Assembly (NCBI RefSeq): GCF_009730915.1
Contig: NC_052478.1
Span: 9,471,552-9,535,551, forward strand
Reading direction: 5' to 3'
DNA from: Dioscorea cayenensis subsp. rotundata
Lineage: Eukaryota; Streptophyta; Magnoliopsida; Dioscoreales; Dioscoreaceae
Length of the DNA stretch: 64,000 bases
Below the pieces are notes generated by a model that did not search any database, was not told where the DNA came from, and was given only the letters and a program-made list of their open reading frames with translations. Shown one piece after another: positions 9,615 to 49,442 of this stretch. How positions within the stretch are numbered: the first letter of the stretch is position 1; each line of letters opens with the position of its first letter. The translations under genes and the position numbers were made by a program.

Positions 9615-12167
9615 ATGACCCGAGGGAATCCTTCAATATTGATTGAAGGAGATCCTGAGCCTGAACGTACACTTAGAAGAAAAGGGAAAAAACCTGTGCA
9701 AGAATAATCTAATTTAGCTGATTTGGAAGTGGAAGAATCTGAAAACATGGCAGAACAGAATGAGCGACAGCGAACATTATCCGATTATGCTAGACCTTCA
9801 GTGTTGGGGACACAGTCGAGTATTGTGCGTCCCCCGATTACAGCTCAGAACTTCGAACTGAAGGCTGCATTCATCCACATGTTGCAGCAATCTGCACAAT
9901 TCAATGGTTTGGCCGATGAAGATCCAAACAGTCATATAGAGAGCTTTCTTGAGGTGTGTGATATGTTGAAGATAAACGGGTGATCGATGATGCAATCAAG
10001 TTGCGAGCCTTCCCATTTTCCCTAAAGGGGAGAGCGAAGCAGTGGCTACACTCATTACCTAGAGCGTCAATTACCATATGGGAGGAGATGGTAGAAGCTT
10101 TTTTGGCCCGTTATTTCCCTCCCGAATAATCAGCAAAGCTTAGGAACAAGATCTCATCCTTTGCTCAGTTGGAATTGGAGTCTCTATTCGAGACATGGGA
10201 AAGGTTCAAGGAGCTCCTGAGAAAGTGCCCACAACACGGATTCCCGTAGTGGATGATTCTTCAGACCTTTTATAATGGTTTGAATCTGAGTACAAGGAAA
10301 CTCTTGGATGCGGCAGCAGGAGGTACCTTAGGTCGCAAGACCCCCGATGAGGTCCGTCAGTTAATTGAAGAAATGGGATTAAACAGCTACCAATGGAATG
10401 CTAGGGAGAAGAAAAAAGTGGCCGGTCTCCATGAAATAGATGCGGTAACTTCATTGGCGGCTCAAGTGGAAAATTTGAGTAAGAAGTTAGATCTTCTAAC
10501 TTCAAATAGAGTGGCAGCCGTGACTAATTGCACCGGGTGTGGTGGAGAACATGCTCCCTCCGATTGCCCGATCTCTATCGGTGATGTTTTTTCGGTGGAG
10601 AACGTTGATTTTGTAGGTAATGGCATGAGACCTCAAGAAAACCCATATAGCAATACCTACAATCCGGGTTGGAAGAATCATCCTAATTTCTCATGGAGTA
10701 ATCAGGGTCCACAAAAGGCCATCGGGCCACCGAGTTTCCAACAATAACAACAAGCCCCTCGGTGAAAAACAGAGTCTCAGGTTTGGAAACCCGAATGAAT
10801 GACTTAGAGAAGCACTTGACTAGATTTGTGCAATCTGCAAATACAAGGTTTGAATCAGTCGAGGCTACACTTCGCAACCACACTGTCCCTTTGCATAACC
10901 TTGAAAATTAGGTGGGGCAAATTGCGAAGTCTCTCTTTAAAAGGCCACATGGAAGCTTGCTGAGCAATACAGAGACCAACCCTAGAGAGCACGTGAAGGC
11001 GATCACTTTGAGAAGTGGTCGTGAGGTTGAAGTTATGCTTCCGAGTGAGAAGCCAAAAGAACACGCACCCGAGGTTATAGAGGTAGAAGAGGGAACAAGC
11101 AAAGAGAAAGAGGTGGCACCCCCACCTTTCAAGCCAAGAATCCCTTATCCCTCTAGATTGAAAAATGACCAAGGGGATGAACAGTATAAGAAGTTCCTGA
11201 GTTTGTTCAAGAAACTCCACATCAATATTTCTTTTGTTGAGGCATTGGCCCAAATGCCTAAGTATGCGAAGTTCTTGAAAGACTTGTTGACTAACAAGAG
11301 GAAGTTGGAGGAAAGTGCTTCAGTGATTTTAGATGCTTCATGCTCGGTGGTATTGCAAAAGAACATGCCGAACAAGAAGAAAGACCCGGGAAGCTTCATC
11401 ATTCCTTGTAATATTGGCAATCTAGGTGAGGAATTGGCATTGGCGGACTCAGGGGCCAGTATCAACGTTATGTCATACACCTTCTTTCAAAAGCTAGGCT
11501 TGGGCGAGCCTAGGCCTACTCGGATGACTTTGCAACTAGCGGAACAGTGCGACATCCGAGAGGCATCATTGAAGACGTGCTTGTCAAGATGGACAAGTAC
11601 ATTTTTCCGGTTGACTTTGTAGTGCTAGACGTCGATGAGGATGCAGATGTTCCTTTGATACTTGGGAGATCGTTCTTGCGGACTTCCAAGGTATTGATTG
11701 ACATGGATGGCGGAGAGCTAACTTTGAGGGTTGGAGATGACAAGCTCACATACCGCCTTGCTGAAGCCATGCGGTATTCTCTTGATTTTGATGATACTTT
11801 ATACTTTCTAAACACTACTGATGAGATTGTTGATGAATACATGCAGGAAATGTTCAATCCGGACCCATACGAGGGTTTGTTCGACCAAGAGGAGGATTAT
11901 GAAGAAGTAATGATGCTTGGTTCGACGGAAGAAGTACCATCTACCCCGGTGATCTTAAAGAAGGTGCTCCGGAAAATGAAGAGGGCTAGGAGACTTCACC
12001 GGAAACACTCCAAGGCTATTGGAGACGTCTGTAAACCAAAGGAGTTGGATGAACCATCGCTAGATGGTCCGAAGCCTGATAATTCACCCTCTATCCTCAG
12101 GAGACTTTGCACATCATGCTTTCAAGTCATGGGTAAGAGGGCAACCTTCATCTATGAACCCCCGTGA
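9615..12167 (+). pseudogene. gag-protease polyprotein of element A, broken
   Basis: From the ATG at 9615 (MTRGNPSILIEGDPEPE) the frame encodes a Ty3/gypsy gag domain (about 9850-10350: DPNSHIESFLEVCDM, FSLKGRAKQWLHSLPRA, ARYFPP, QTFYNGLN). A zinc knuckle CTGCGGEHAPSDC follows at about 10530-10570. An aspartic protease has the active-site Asp at 11446 (ALADSGASINVM) and VPLILGRSFL at about 11650. The tail, rich in acidic and then basic residues, ends at TGA 12165. Disruptions are TAA 9705, a frameshift near 9982, TAA 10127, TAG 10247, TAA 10745, a frame change near 10900 and a 5-nt deletion near 11545 relative to copy B. No RT follows the protease. Confidence 0.9.
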
Positions 12168-42550: not shown

Positions 42551-43105
42551 TATATTTATTTATACTAGTGACCTTCACATTGCTTTGAAGTCAATATTAC
42601 TTCTTCTGTTTAATGCTAATGTTATATATAAGCTTTACACATTATTATTAAAAAATTTTAAATCTAAAAAAGTTTATGACAAGATATTTTTATTTTAATT
42701 GAAATTATATGACTCTTATTAATGGATAGACATCTCTCTAAATAAGAAGAGCAGCAAAATTTAAAAAAAAAACAAATAATTAATATTTATAAAATTCTTA
42801 AAGGTGACAAATAATTTGAAAAGGCAATTTTTTTTAAATATGACAAGTACTATGAAATGGGGAGAGTAATAAGGTGGGCGAACCACAATTTAACATATAT
42901 TTAATAATTAATTTAAAAAAAAATTTAATATAAAACAATTTCAAGCAGCCACTAAAACCTAAAGGACACTGGATAAAAAAAATGATTTATTTAGTTCATA
43001 GGGTTTATAAGTAAATATATATTATATTATATTATTAATTAGGGCTATTTGCCATGATAGCCCCACAATCTATTTTAATTAACTAAATGACCCAGACCAG
43101 AATGA
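42551..43105. other. AT-rich spacer before the MULE
   Basis: Decayed 3' flank of the reductase gene and the target region of the MULE. No gene was recognised. Confidence 0.4.
43097..43105. repeat. Left target site duplication of the MULE
   Basis: CCAGAATGA directly precedes the left TIR. The right copy reads CCAGAAT at 48533-48539 and is interrupted there by a hAT-like element. After that element the sequence AGAATGACC follows, so removing it restores CCAGAATGA. Confidence 0.8.
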
Positions 43106-43828
43106 GCCTTTCTTTTTTTAAAATAATGCGTTTTTTTTTATTTAATTACGAAAATAGGTATATTTTAAATTATTTACAAATGTAGGTAAAACGGTAAGAT
43201 TGGTACCGGTTTTAATGTTTGGGGGTAGAAATCGGTATACTTCATACCGGTTTTAATGTATTTGGGTAGAAAATGGTATGAACCATACCGTTTTCAATGT
43301 TTCAATATTTTTTTAAAAAAAATTAAAATGGAAAACGGGATTTATCATCCCGTTTTCAGTGCTAATGATCCCGTTTTCACTGTTTTTTATTATTATTTTT
43401 TAATTTTATAAAATTTATCAATTTTAACTCTTTATTTTTTTTTAAATACATTTTTGTTTTAAATTTATTAATTTTTTGCATTTTAACCCACATTTCTTTT
43501 ATAATTAATTCAATAATTTATAAAATGGTTTTTTAAAACCAATTTTTTTAAGAAAAATTATTTAAAATTATTTTATTAATATTTTGATTATTATTAGAGT
43601 GATAATCATTGAAGTAGGAATTATTGAAAATTATTTTTATTATTATTTTTATTATTGTTGTTATTATTACTATTATAATTGGGAGAATTATTTTCAATTA
43701 TTTTGTTGAAGAAGGAATTATTTCAAATTATTTTGTTGATGATTTCATTATTATTAAAGAAGGAATTATTCTTAATTATTTTATTAATAATTTGAATTAT
43801 TGAAAATTATTTTTATTATTATTGATAA

Positions 43829-43873
<45 letters not shown>

Positions 43874-44055
43874 GGGAGAATTATTCGTAATTATTTTATT
43901 AATAATTTGATTATTATTTGGGAATTATTAAGGCATGAATTATTCAAAATAATTGTTAAAGTGGAAATTATTGAAATTATTTTTATTTATTATTTAAATT
44001 ATTATTATTATTTCTCCAACTATAAATATGTTCATCTAATCCAATACCCTCATCA
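43106..44055 (+). repeat. Left terminal inverted repeat of the MULE
   Basis: Contains GGTAAGATTGGTACCGG, ATACCGGTTTTAATGTAT and AACCATACCGTTTTCAATG words near the end. Long AT-rich repeats of ATTATT type (43560-44010) follow, then the TATAAATA box at 44021. All are mirrored in the right TIR. Confidence 0.85.
44021..44028 (+). promoter_or_regulatory. TATA box in the left TIR, driving MURA
   Basis: TATAAATA in the context CCAACTATAAATATG lies 37 bases before the first ATG of MURA (44058). The same context, TTCAACTATAAATATG, occurs inverted in the right TIR. Confidence 0.65.
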
Positions 44056-44057
44056 AC

Positions 44058-46071
44058 TTGAGAGTCTATCCAACTCATATGAGGGCATTAGATTTGGAAG
44101 CAATGTCAGCCCCAAAATTCTCAGGCCATCCTTTCTTTAACACCCACAGATGTGGAGGGGCAGTAACAGACAGAGAATTGTATGTAGGCATGCAATTCAA
44201 CACCAAAGATGATGCTGTCATTGTGATTAAGAATCACTGCTTGTAGAAGTCAGTGGATTACATTATGATCGAGTCTAATCCAACTCGTTATGTAGGAAGA
44301 TGCAACCTATATGGTGACTGATGTAGTTGGAGGGTTCGTGTATCATTTAACAAGAAGAAGCAGATTTGCCATGTTACAAAATATAATGGTCCTCATACTT
44401 GTGCGTCGGCAATGATCTCCCAAGACCATTCCAAGCTTGATTCCAATATGATTTGTCAACACATACAGGCTTTAGTTAAAGAGAAGCTGAGCATCAATGT
44501 ATCTATTTTAATAGCAGAGATCAAAAATCGATATGGGTATACTCTAACATATAGAAAGGTATGGATTGCCAAGCAAAAAGCAGTTGAAGCAGCATTTGGG
44601 AACTGGGAGGAGTCATATAATGAATTACCAAGATGGTTATCGGCTTTGGAGCAATTTTTCCCTGGGACAATAATTGATCTCCAAACTCAACCAGCGTATA
44701 ACGGGAACCACATGGTACGTGATAGTCATGTTTTTCACAGACTTTTTTGGAGTTTCCCTTCATGTGTGGAGGCTTTCAAATATTGTAAGCCAGTAGTGCA
44801 GATAGATGGCACACATCTTTATGGAAAATATAAAGGAACTTTGTTGATGGCAGTCGCTCAGAATGGCAACAAAAACATCCTTCCTATTGCTTTTGCTATT
44901 GTAGAAAGAGAGACTCTAGACGCTTGGAAATTCTTCTTAGAGCATTTGCGAGTGAATGTGACACCACAAGAACGAATCTGTTTCATCTCTGATAGTCACG
45001 AGGCCATCAAAGGAGCATTCCGAGCAATTGGTCGATCGATGCATCCTCCACATGCCTACCATGTTTATTGCATTAGGCATATATCCGCAAACTTCTTGTG
45101 TCGCTTCAAAAATAAAGAAATACAACGGGCAGTTTTAAATGCTGGTAAATTATAAACCATCTATTTACTACTTTTAACCATATATTGCTTTTTATTTTTA
45201 GTGTTGTCTTACAATTTTTATGGTGTTTAATTCAGGTTACTTAAAAACTACTCATGATTTTAACTACTGGTATGATCTGGTGCGAGAATATGACATAGAA
45301 GCGGCGAGGTGGTTAGACAATATACCACGAGAAAAGTGGGCTCAAGCCTTTGATACTGAAGGTCGAAGGTATGGCCATATGACTACCAATCTTGCTGAAT
45401 GTGTTAATTCAGTATTGAAAGGAACAAGGAATCTTCCTATAACAGCTTTAGTTAAATCAACATATTTTCGTTTGGCTGAGTTGTTCGTAAGGAAAGGTTT
45501 AATTGCACAAGTTCAAATCGCATCTGGTCAAATATTTTCAGAGTCACTAACAAAGATAATTCAAGAAAATCAACAATCAGCAAGTAGCATTTATGTTCGT
45601 CAATTTGATCATGAAGAAACTTCTTTTATGGTAGACAAAATGGCCCCACCACAATATGGAGGTGTTGCTGGTAGTTACCGCATTGATATGAGGGCACAAT
45701 GGTGCGATTGTGGTGAGTTTCAAACGCTTCATTTTCCTTGTCGCCATGTTATTGCCACATGCGCTTCCATTCATCTACATTGGCAGGAATACGTTGATGA
45801 TGTGTACAAGCTTGAGACAATTTTTAATGTATATCACAAAGAGTTTCAAGTAATATCAAATAAAGGATATTGGAACCCTTATAATGGTCCACGTCTATGC
45901 CCTAACCTTCTGATGAGAAGACCTTTGAAAGGACGCCCCAAATCCACAAGGATTCGTAACGAAATGGATATACGTGAAGGTGGTCAACCAAAGCGTTGTG
46001 GTTTATGCCATAATGAAGGACATAGCCGTAGGAATTGTCCTAATGTACCTAGTCCCAGTAGTCGGTCTTGA
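44058..46071 (+). pseudogene. MURA-type Mutator transposase, two in-frame stops
   Basis: The model is two exons (44058-45144, 45236-46071) joined by a GT-AG intron of 91 bp, giving 640 codons. Removal of the intron keeps NAG|YLKTTHDF in frame. Domains in order: Mu DNA-binding domain (about residues 40-115: ELYVGMQFNTKDDA, HVTKYNGPHTC); the MULE DDE core with first Asp at residue 250 (VQIDGTHLYGKYKG), second Asp at 312 (CFISDSHEAI) and Glu in NLAECVNSVLKGTRNLP; a SWIM zinc finger (CDCGEFQTLHFPCRHV); and a C-terminal zinc knuckle (CGLCHNEGHSRRNC). TAG at 44244 and TGA at 44319 interrupt the DNA-binding domain, so the full protein cannot be made without readthrough. A shorter protein from 44412 would keep the DDE core but lose DNA binding. 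Confidence 0.9.
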
Positions 46072-46177
46072 TATTGCAAAAATAGTATAGTTGTTGTAAT
46101 ATTTTACAATATATGTAACTGTTTTTTTTTCTATTGATAAATGATATGTAACTGTTTTTCATCTTATAATTGTATTG

Positions 46178-46179
<2 letters not shown>

Positions 46180-46222
<43 letters not shown>
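46180..46222. repeat. (AAT)n microsatellite
   Basis: About fourteen ATA/AAT units follow the MURA stop codon and separate it from the PMD gene. A second run lies at 46420-46443. Confidence 0.9.
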
Positions 46223-46223
<1 letters not shown>

Positions 46224-46260
46224 GACTGAAGTCACTAATAAAATCTTTAAAAATAAAAAA

Positions 46261-47130
46261 TTAATAATGAAAAAGTAGGTATCCCAAATAAAACTTAAAA
46301 AATAAAATAAAATCAACATAATTAATAATTAAAATTTTAATGAAAATGAAAAAGTAAATGTCCGAAAATGATAACGAAAAAGTAAGTGTCCCAAAAATAA
46401 AAAAATAAAATATTACAAATAATAATAATAATAATAATAATAATACACTTTTATAAATAATAATGAAATCACGTAAAAGTGGTAACCATTTCAAATGAAC
46501 CCTATTTTGGGACATATTTGGCATCAAGACACATCGAATGAGCTTTAGTATATATGCACGTGCACAATACTCAATCTGTTGTGCACTTGCATCATGCAGT
46601 AACATACCAAATGTTTCTTCAAGCCAAGTTAGGGTTATTGTTTGGCCTTTTCTTTGTTCAGGAGGCGGGATAACACCGAGCAACTCCTCACATAGATCAA
46701 TCCCAATGCCGGATGTTGGTCCAATAACTTCATTGCCATTAATAGGTAACCCAAGTAACAATGCCACATCCTCTAATGTAATTGTTGCTTCACCACAAGT
46801 CAAGTGGAATGTGTGTGTTTCTGGCCGCCATCTCTCCACTAATGCACTGATAAGACCAGAATCAATTTGAAAATGTTGAACTTGAGCTGCATGTGAAAAC
46901 CCGGCTTCTCTTAAAATATCCATGATTTGAGTCGGTAGTTCAGCAATAGAAATATGTCTACACCTTAGAACTTGATCAGGCTATAAAAAAACTTTTAAAT
47001 AATTAATTTAAAATAAATAATAAATAATAAACAACAAATAAAACACGGCCACATAAAATCTAAGCATTAAACTTACTTTCTCAAATAAAATTGATGATAT
47101 ATGTTCATTTTGATTTCGTACTAATGCCAT
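46261..47130 (-). CDS. Plant mobile domain (PMD) protein carried by the MULE, C-terminally truncated
   Basis: Two exons on the minus strand: 47130-47077 (MALVRNQNEHISSILFEK) and 46980-46261, joined by a GT-AG intron in phase 0 (FEK|PDQVLRCRHIS). Together 257 codons without a stop. Residues from PDQVLR to LKWLPLLRDF (46980 to about 46473) match the amino-terminal half of the plant mobile domain of MAIN/MAIL-type proteins. Key blocks are ALVERWRPETHTFHL, GEATITLEDVALLLGLPING and NRVHLKWLPLLRDF. After LLRDF the frame runs into AT-rich repeat DNA (LLLLLLL), so the usual second half of the domain is missing. PMD proteins act in silencing and meristem maintenance in Arabidopsis, and PMDs are also known in plant transposons. 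Function here is unknown. Confidence 0.8.
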
Positions 47131-47209
47131 TTAGAAAAATAAACTCAAATTGAAGAAGAAAAGAGAAAATAAGAGAAAAAGGAGATTTGGTGACAATGAA
47201 AAGAAAAAT

Positions 47210-47255
47210 GGCTTGATGAGGGTATTGGATTAGGAGTCATATTTATAGTTGAAGA

Positions 47256-47322
<67 letters not shown>

Positions 47323-48532
47323 CTATTAATAATAATAATTTAAATAATTTCTACTCTAACAATTATTTAAAATAGTTCCTGCCATAATAATTCCCAAATA
47401 ATATTAAAATATTAACAAAATAATTTGAAATAATTTTTTTCTTAATTATAATGAAATCATCAACAAAATAATTGCAAATAATTCTCCCTATAATAGTAAT
47501 AATTTACTACTAATAATAAAAATAATTATCAATAATTCCTACTTCAATAATTATCACTCTAATAATAATCAAAATATTAATAAAATAATTACGACTTTAA
47601 TAATAATTTTAAATAATTCCTACCTAAATAATTCCGACACTAACAATAATAATCAAATTATTAATAAAATAATTTGAAATAATTGAGAATAATTTTCCCA
47701 ATAATAATAGTAATAATAACAACAACAACAACAACAACAATAATAAAAAATAATTTGCTAATAATAAAAAAAAATTCTCAATAATTCCTACTTCAATAAT
47801 TGTCACTCTAATAATAATCAAAATATTAATAAAATAATTTAAAATAATTACCACTTTAATAATAATTTTAAATAATTCCTACCTCAATAATTCCCACACT
47901 AACAATAATAATGAAATCATCAACAAAATAATTTGAAATAATTCCTTCTTCAACAAAATAATTGAAAATAATTCTCCCAATTATAATAGTAATAATAACA
48001 ACAATAATAAAAATAATAATAAAAATAATTTTCAATAATTCCTACTTCAACGATAATCACTCTAATAATAATCAAAATATTAATAAAATAATTTTAAATA
48101 ATTTTTCTTAAAAAAATTGGTTTAAAAAACCATTTTATAAATTATTGAATTAATTATAAAAGAAATGTGGGGTTAAAGTGCAAAAAAATTAAGAAATTTA
48201 AAACAGAAATGTATTTAAAAAATAAAGAGTTAAAATTGATAAATTTTATAAAATTAAAAAAATAAATAAAAAAAACAATGAAAACGGTATGATAAATCCC
48301 GTTTTCCACTTTAATTTTTTTTTTAAAAAAATATTGAAACATTGAAAACGGTATGAATCATACCGTTTTCTACCCCCATACATTAAAACCGGTATGAAGC
48401 ATACAGTTATCTACCCCCAAACATTAAAGCTGGTACCAATCTTACCATTTTACCTACATTCGTAAATAATTTAAAATATACCTATTTTCGTAATTAAATA
48501 AAAAAAACGCATTATTTTAAAAAAAAAAGGCT
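47210..48532 (-). repeat. Right terminal inverted repeat of the MULE
   Basis: Inverted counterpart of 43106-44055, with the TATA segment at 47240, long AAT/ATA repeats (47260-48060) and the CGGTATGAATCATACCG and ACCGGTATGAAGCATAC words near the end. It is longer than the left arm by about 370 bp, partly from duplicated AATTATT-type blocks. Confidence 0.85.
47240..47247 (-). promoter_or_regulatory. TATA box in the right TIR, driving the PMD gene
   Basis: TATAAATA on the minus strand in the context CAACTATAAATATG is the inverted copy of the MURA TATA box. It lies 110 bp upstream of the PMD ATG at 47130. Both genes thus appear to use TIR promoters. Confidence 0.6.
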
Positions 48533-48539
48533 CCAGAAT

Positions 48540-49442
48540 TAGAGCTGTCAATTCGGGTTTGGCCCGTCAGGCCCGCCCCTGCCAATAAAATTGGGCGGGT
48601 CGGGTTAGTCATTTATAAGCCCGTCCTGAGGCGGGCTAAATGGGACCAACCCGCGGGCCATGAGTTGGGCAGGGGCGGGCCATGGGTTGAGGGCGGGTCA
48701 GCCATGCCCACCTATAATTTATATAATATATATATATATATTGATATTGACATAATATATAAAATATTGTTAAGGATTTAAATTGCATTTAATTATGTTT
48801 TAAAAGAAATATGCATGTTTAATTTTGTTGATGTGATGTGATGGTTAATGAAGTTTAATATGCATTTAATTATGTTTTTAAAAAGAAATATGGAGATAAC
48901 AACATATTTTAATGACTATTGATTTTGATGAATATTGTGATTAGTAATGGATGTTTTTATTTTTGTCTTTATTAATTTTTTGCTAAATTTTTGTTGATTG
49001 TAATGGATGAATGTTATAATTATAATAGATGTTTTTATCTTGTCTTTGTTGTTTTTTTTTATTTTTGTTGATTGTAAATTTGTAATAGATATTTTTTTAT
49101 TTAGAGATTTTTGTAATTATTGTTGATTTTTGTTAGGGTTTTGAATATTATAATGGATGTTTTTATTTTGTTAATTATTGTATGTTTTAATTTTTAATTT
49201 AGTTTTTTTATGAATTTATAATGAATGTTTCATATATTAAAAACATTTATAAAAAAATAAAATAAATTAATTATTTTAATTTTTAGTGGCCGGCCCGCCC
49301 TAACCCATAACCCAAAAACGGGTCGGGTTGGGTTGCCATTTTTGACGCCCGCCAAAATGGCGGGCCTCGCCCGCCCTCGCCAAATGGCGGGTTTTAGCGA
49401 GCCATGGACCCGCCCCTCGGCCACATTGTTTGATCGCTTCTA
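48540..49442. mobile_element. Nonautonomous hAT-like element with GC-rich ends, inserted in the MULE target duplication
   Basis: The left end TAGAGCTGTCAATTCGGG and right end (reverse complement TAGAAGCGATCAAACAATG) form imperfect inverted repeats. Both subterminal zones are rich in GGCGGGC and GGGCGGGT words (48555-48700, 49290-49430). The centre is AT-rich and encodes nothing. AGAAT is repeated on both sides. TAGAGCTGTCAA-type ends are known from hAT-related nonautonomous elements. The class is inferred because the flanking duplication seen is only 5 bases. Confidence 0.65.

Follow-up and report, generated by a model that had tools for sequence, protein, structure and literature searches.

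A plant mobile domain gene convergent with the transposase gene in Mutator-like elements of white Guinea yam

Maize MuDR, a Mutator-like element (MULE), has two genes, mudrA and mudrB, which converge under promoters in the arms of the element. Here we describe a MULE of comparable layout in the monocot Dioscorea rotundata (white Guinea yam), at positions 43106-48532 of a 64,000-nucleotide stretch of contig NC_052478.1 (positions 9,471,552 to 9,535,551 of the forward strand; hereafter the window). It has long inverted arms, a MURA-type transposase gene on the plus strand and, convergent with it, a plant mobile domain (PMD) gene on the minus strand. The likeness to MuDR is one of layout, the second gene being mudrB in maize and PMD in yam. 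Comparison of the family's sequences across the genome makes the PMD gene look like an old, once selected second gene of the element, because the ratio of nonsynonymous to synonymous substitution (dN/dS) between two clades is low and the protein identity equals that of MURA.

The convergent PMD layout is already known in plant MULEs. Dupeyron 2019 (PMC6446971; for this and the other articles cited, our statements refer to excerpts) lists PMD in VANDAL (half of the members, with PMD and/or DUF), MuDR-9_OS, MULE-Monocots, MDR, MUDRAVI2, MUDR and MULE-Solanaceae_1, in antisense in some or most members of five such groups, which bears out the remark in an earlier note on this DNA that PMD in plant transposons is known. 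The yam element is like MULE-Monocots, MDR, MUDRAVI2 and MUDR in its SWIM transposase, in the opposite-strand PMD found in many of their members and perhaps, where these are given, in 9-bp duplications. Terminal inverted repeats (TIRs), compared by table description, reach up to a few hundred bases in the groups of Dupeyron 2019, whereas they measure about 1 kb in the yam element. MULE-Solanaceae_1, with antisense PMD and no TIR, resembles by its description the yam clade I introduced below, in another host. The excerpts of that article contain no analysis of selection, co-divergence or loss and do not name Dioscorea; the yam study adds these.

Ikeda 2017 (PMC5418596) describes capture of PMD-C by MULEs in grasses and Amborella, as transposase fusions, and suggests an anti-silencing use. 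In yam, by contrast, PMD is a separate, opposite-strand, convergent gene, and PMD and MURA domains were found together in none of the 120 listed PMD homologues (of 776) and none of the 120 listed MURA homologues (of 149), within the length limits that apply. VANDAL/Hiun elements have a trans-acting accessory gene for the anti-silencing protein VANC (Hosaka 2017, PMC5735166). VANC has DUF1985/DUF287, whereas the yam accessory gene is PMD: in the PMD frame of the relative L009, Pfam (E up to 0.01) detected PMD only and neither of these domains. Among host proteins with a PMD, MAIN and MAIL1 work together with PP7L, and their functions lie in silencing and in gene expression (Ikeda 2017, PMC5418596; Nicolau 2020; Cells 2021 review). 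Among the matches listed, titles and abstract openings yielded no report of selection on MULE-borne PMD.

MURA-PMD pairs, clades and selection

The Dioscorea rotundata genome (584 Mb in 2,249 contigs) was screened by protein searches with the exons of the window and of the relative L029, which after merging gave 170 PMD and 139 MURA loci. Candidates scored were the best 150 of 843 and the best 150 of 831 for PMD exon 2, the best 138 of 315 for the last PMD exon, and the best 140 of 3,085 and 140 of 3,119 for MURA; 150 of 152 matches of the PMD search were carried forward. In merging, about 20 rows were omitted as pieces of places already given, and 12 of the 143 rows of one search were added, the others being judged coincident with places from another. 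Locus counts are lower bounds, and MURA loci called unpaired may hide unscored PMDs.

A PMD lies within 10 kb of 80 of the 139 MURA loci (59 are without), against about 0.8 such pairs expected if the loci were independent. Seventy-six of these 80 are convergent, three divergent and one tandem, which upholds the MuDR-like convergent two-gene layout proposed in the earlier note. The sole tandem pair is L009, where one element starts exactly where the MURA of another breaks off (nested or rearranged).

A MURA exon tree was built for 53 of the 139 loci, picked for coverage and match strength, and a second one for 45 rows after removal of eight long-branch rows. C14_7411 was coded as unpaired despite a divergent PMD 9.7 kb away, and C1_10330 as paired despite its tandem, nested or rearranged element. 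The 53 exons fall into four clades, I-IV. In clade I, 27 of 30 rows are paired with PMD; self-alignment of six members (L029-L034) detected no TIRs, save one 35-nt match in L033. Since clade I has the layout without detectable TIRs, the convergent pair does not depend on long TIRs. Clade II, with long TIRs, includes the window; four of its five rows are coded as paired, three of them convergent, and the remainder comprises the tandem L009 and the row with a divergent PMD 9.7 kb away. Clade II groups with clade IV (support 99 with 53 rows, 100/99 with 45 rows). A single clade uniting III and IV was rejected (p-AU, approximately unbiased test, 0.0005; 45-row tree). In a PMD tree of 36 rows, long-TIR and clade I copies are split with support 100.

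Selection was estimated from majority codons, for MURA from 19 of 30 rows of clade I, 3 of 5 of clade II, 8 of 11 of clade III and 5 of 7 of clade IV, and for PMD from 23 of 26 rows of clade I and 6 of 10 long-TIR rows (omitting C10, C903, C12 and one of two L022 copies, with a separate comparison for C903 and C12). Between clades I and II the dN/dS of PMD exon 2 is 0.066 (interval 0.038-0.102; 224 majority codons) and that of MURA 0.046 (0.031-0.093; 262 majority codons). Differences at the three codon positions number 25/22/100 for PMD and 40/20/118 for MURA, and the same alignments read in shifted frames give 1.7-2.6. At the protein level the clades agree in 183/224 positions (81.7%) for PMD and in 213/262 (81.3%) for MURA. 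A single clade II copy, set against the majority of six clade I copies, gives 0.215 over the last PMD exon (first 130 residues 0.155, rest 0.268). These codon comparisons show that, between the two clades, PMD was under strong purifying selection in the past, about as strict as that on MURA; a dN/dS below 1 had been named in the earlier note as a check. The synonymous difference of PMD between clades I and II exceeds that of MURA between II and IV in 98.1% of bootstraps, which makes a late entry of PMD into clade II, by transfer from clade I, unlikely (bootstrap 0.019).

The window element and its relatives

The features of the window element are as follows.

43097..43105, no strand: left probable 9-bp target duplication, CCAGAATGA (8/9 against 48533-48541)
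43106..44063, plus strand: left TIR, MURA side, inner border approximate (inverted-repeat search; self-alignment)
43188..43310, plus strand: three 41-nt subterminal tandem units with palindromic cores (direct repeat family D17; sequence)
44021-44028, plus strand: TATAAATA box of the MURA-side arm, putative promoter (sequence)
44070..45144, plus strand: MURA exon 1 remnant with MULE domain (tblastn to L029 MURA residues 242-601; Pfam PF10551)
45145..45235, plus strand: putative MURA intron, GT..AG (reading-frame continuity)
45236..46071, plus strand: MURA exon 2 with SWIM zinc finger and, by eye, a C-terminal CCHC-like motif (Pfam SWIM; tblastn 77% to L029 exon 2)
46465..46980, minus strand: PMD exon 2, truncated (PF10536 1-141/347; alignment to relatives; L009 gene structure)
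46981..47076, minus strand: PMD intron 1, GTAAGT..ATAG (comparison with six other long-TIR copies)
47077..47130, minus strand: PMD exon 1, 54 nt, MALVRNQNEHISSILFEK (sequence and comparison)
47247-47240, minus strand: TATAAATA box, putative promoter, in the PMD-side arm, with the PMD ATG 110 nt downstream (sequence)
47213..48532, minus strand: right TIR, PMD side, with internal repeats (inverted-repeat search; self-alignment)
48533..48541, no strand: right probable target duplication, CCAGAATTA (sequence)

The transposase is recognized by Pfam PF10551 (E 2.8e-17) and SWIM (4.7e-6). About 241 N-terminal residues are gone relative to the L029 protein, the tblastn match beginning at residue 242, and exon 1 has in-frame stops at 44244-44246 and 44319-44321. 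The Mut DNA-binding domain PF03108, present in L029, was not found in the window exons scanned by Pfam. The PMD gene is recognized by PF10536 (E 5.7e-37), covering positions 1-141 of 347 only. Its likeness to relatives ends after 172 codons of exon 2, and the remainder of that exon and the later exons are lost. Since MURA has neither an N-terminus nor an unbroken frame and PMD is cut short, the window copy is dead, with both genes broken. In searches of solved structures the window PMD piece had two weak matches only (E 0.48 and 0.75), and the L009 PMD frame none at E up to 1.

The arms pair in inverted blocks at 43113-43322/48317-48526 (90%) and 43523-43755/47904-48136 (97%), and a gapped alignment of 43104-44009 with 47546-48533 reaches 80.5% over 1014 columns (E given as 0.0). 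An inner block, 43998-44056, pairs with 47213-47270. At its inner end each arm has CAACTATAAATATG and, a few bases further on, CTAATCCAATACCCTCATCAA, the two sides mirroring each other. The very long TIRs with mirrored TATA boxes described in the earlier note are present, as arms of about 1 kb with TATAAATA in each. The MURA-side box is exact in L009, L019, L022 and L023, the PMD-side box in L018 and the C10, C903 and C12 copies. Relative to the window, the MURA-side inner block is 98-99% identical in L009 and the C10/C903/C12 copies, 94% in L019 and 83% in L018, and the PMD-side block 92-97% in six copies; the blocks differ between sides and are alike between copies. A 99% block of 150 nt common to the window and the C10, C903 and C12 copies, odd at first, proved to be the MURA-side inner arm matched with its own counterpart and not with the other arm.

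The ends proposed at 43106 and 48532 agree with the element: probable target duplications adjoin both, the flanks agreeing in 8 of 9 positions provided that the two tips differ by one base. Read by eye in ten copies (two of them one duplicated insertion), target duplications, which measure 8-11 bp in MULEs, are 9/9 in L026, with ACATTTTCA on both flanks, 8/9 in the window, 7/9 in L019 and not clear in the other seven. Three 41-nt units with palindromic CGGTAT/ACCGGT-like cores lie near each tip of the window element (43188-43310 and 48275-48420); from their sequence, they are possible transposase-binding arrays. A GGGCGGGC-rich repeat at 48533-48720 and 49290-49430 touches the element's right end and is possibly a small transposon beside the target duplication. 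Elsewhere in the window, at 10912-12167, two overlapping long frames resemble by eye the gag/protease of LTR (long terminal repeat) retrotransposons.

A left-arm search of the genome gave at least 89 matches, and 20 stretches around such matches were taken for comparison. In L009 (C1), a long-TIR relative, the PMD gene starts with an ATG and is split into four exons; its open frame, 547 aa long, matches PF10536 over positions 1-346 of 347 (E 9.2e-87). The full-length C-terminal half that the earlier note had asked about is thereby kept in this relative. Five of its six splice sites are canonical and one acceptor reads CAT. The conserved intron also sought there holds for the position of intron 1 and for its donor, GTAAGT in 7/7 long-TIR copies compared, window included, and does not hold for the acceptor, which is altered in some. 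In L018 (C20), MURA and PMD converge between arms that measure about 1 kb and are 72% alike; MURA extends to its N-terminus, PMD is kept in exon 2 and in the 96 residues that open the last exon, and stops interrupt both genes. The C10, C903 and C12 copies (10.5 kb) contain PMD and, of MURA, no more than the N-terminal part. They have flanks in common and are 94% alike over about 11.5 kb, and therefore represent one insertion in a duplicated segment. Inside that segment (L012/L013, L014/L015, L016/L017) a frame resembles by eye a piece of PIF/Harbinger transposase. Palindromic derivatives also occur: each half contains PMD pieces in L022, L023 and L009, and the MURA start in L019.

The PMDs of the clade I elements L034 and L032 have matches among public yam proteins, namely P0001 (PP7 long form homolog) and P0003 (MAIN-LIKE 2-like); a further one, P0002, appears to fuse PMD with the antisense of MURA at C5:15879730 (L054/L086). 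Caution is due with gene models that carry the name 'serine/threonine-protein phosphatase 7 long form homolog', which can belong to transposons. Outside Dioscorea, the MURA homologues among the matches listed are mostly from legumes, Arachis above all, as are many of the listed PMD homologues, a hint that the same two-gene element may exist there.

Possible roles of the PMD gene

Several results weigh against an old, selected second gene that serves its element. PMD is not always present, a point that the earlier note had proposed to check: clade III is paired with it in 0/11 rows and clade IV in 0/7, and for the wider family this is the very outcome that the note had named as refuting. In two clade III members, TIRs of about 95 bp enclose MURA alone; direct reading of three clade IV members showed no PMD within about 2.9-3.2 kb past MURA. 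Downstream reading of five clade III/IV loci (L035, L036, L037, L099 and L100, of 18 rows), and of L038 to the contig end, found no PMD (best match E 0.18). Because two related MURA clades are unpaired, the wider family can do without the gene. Within clade II the median dN/dS of PMD is 0.82; when the C903/C12 pair is compared with the rest of that clade, the ratio is 1.70 (0.69-14.1). Including the within-clade medians of 0.52 for PMD in clade I and 0.34-0.49 for MURA, the PMD ratios within clades fit decay after insertion and give no sign of current function. The majority codons behind the between-clade ratios smooth copy-level noise, synonymous sites are near saturation and the upper bound for MURA between clades I and II lies at the ceiling; if clades I and II took up PMD in separate events, some of the selection may have fallen on host genes. 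Conservation of the arms is also uneven, with one changed base in the MURA-side box of L018 and the C10/C903/C12 copies and in the PMD-side box of L009 and L010 (reading TTTAAATA), and with inner arm blocks only 74-89% alike in L022 and L023.

Since III and IV do not form one clade, at least two changes are needed on the tree. If clades I and II had each independently captured one of two related host PMD genes, both times in convergent position, the tree would require no losses, but the equal identity of MURA and PMD between the clades speaks against this. The stop-free distant match C19:5250637, moreover, is only 44-46% identical (host PMD genes of the genome were not searched systematically), and PMD matches outside Dioscorea, among those listed, are 35-51% identical; we regard a double capture as quite unlikely. 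Under the history that we prefer, PMD would have been present before clades II and IV split and lost in IV, and would have been lost in, or not yet gained by, clade III. That PMD is a passenger, a host gene captured by transduplication in the manner of Pack-MULEs and without a role in the element, would agree with the truncated, decayed window copy, with gene capture by MULEs and with the within-clade medians of 0.52 and 0.82. A Pack-MULE, however, holds a host gene fragment without transposase, whereas the window has transposase sequence and PMD bears the mark of past purifying selection; the low ratio between clades, the same place and orientation in two clades and the four-exon, full-profile gene of L009 disfavour this reading, which is highly improbable.

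PMD might instead be a transposition helper like maize mudrB, for reinsertion or efficient transposase action. It is a convergent second gene beside an arm TATA box, as mudrB is in maize, and was under strong past selection. Dupeyron 2019 (PMC6446971) adds that mudrB is apparently required for integration. Against a helper stand the PMD-less clades III and IV, III with signs of amplification (end branches measure 0.003-0.007 in four of its rows; MURA exon 1 of L035 is open over 603 codons, though exon 2 has a gap), and the cited literature, which ties host PMD proteins to silencing and gene expression, not to integration. Because clades without PMD amplified, the gene is probably no part of the core reaction in the wider family, and a helper role seems unlikely. 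The involvement of host MAIN and MAIL1 in silencing, along with arm sequence common to both genes, could also fit a PMD that limits its own element by repressing or regulating the arm promoters, for copy-number control. A pure self-repressor, it can be argued, would gain its own copy little in a multi-copy family, and selection between clades was about as strong as on the transposase; such a role is very unlikely.

We tentatively favour an anti-silencing factor over a transposition helper, by analogy with host proteins: the roles of MAIN and MAIL1, together with PP7L, in silencing and gene expression are the reason why interference with host silencing is preferred. The left arm would drive MURA and the right arm PMD toward it. 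The PMD protein would mimic or compete with members of the host's MAIN/MAIL1/PP7L silencing module, influencing host transcription and chromatin in trans, and would keep the element's genes expressed, much like VANC, an unrelated protein, in VANDAL elements. Its target would be expression and not the cut-and-paste reaction, since relatives without it amplified. Taken as a whole, we give about an even chance to the explanation that the window holds a decayed two-gene MULE whose PMD acted in trans against host silencing.

To the known layout, the yam family adds a genome-wide count, matching divergence of the two genes, purifying selection and related clades without PMD. Whether PMD does anything for MULEs was left open in the excerpts of Dupeyron 2019 and Ikeda 2017; in yam it was selected about as strictly as the transposase. 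It is decidedly doubtful that anti-silencing is a trans-acting public good, supplied by clades I and II and exploited by III and IV after dropping the gene; if true, the yam genome would be a natural producer/cheater system among transposons. The PMD-less related elements in the same genome are natural controls and make the counter-silencing idea testable.

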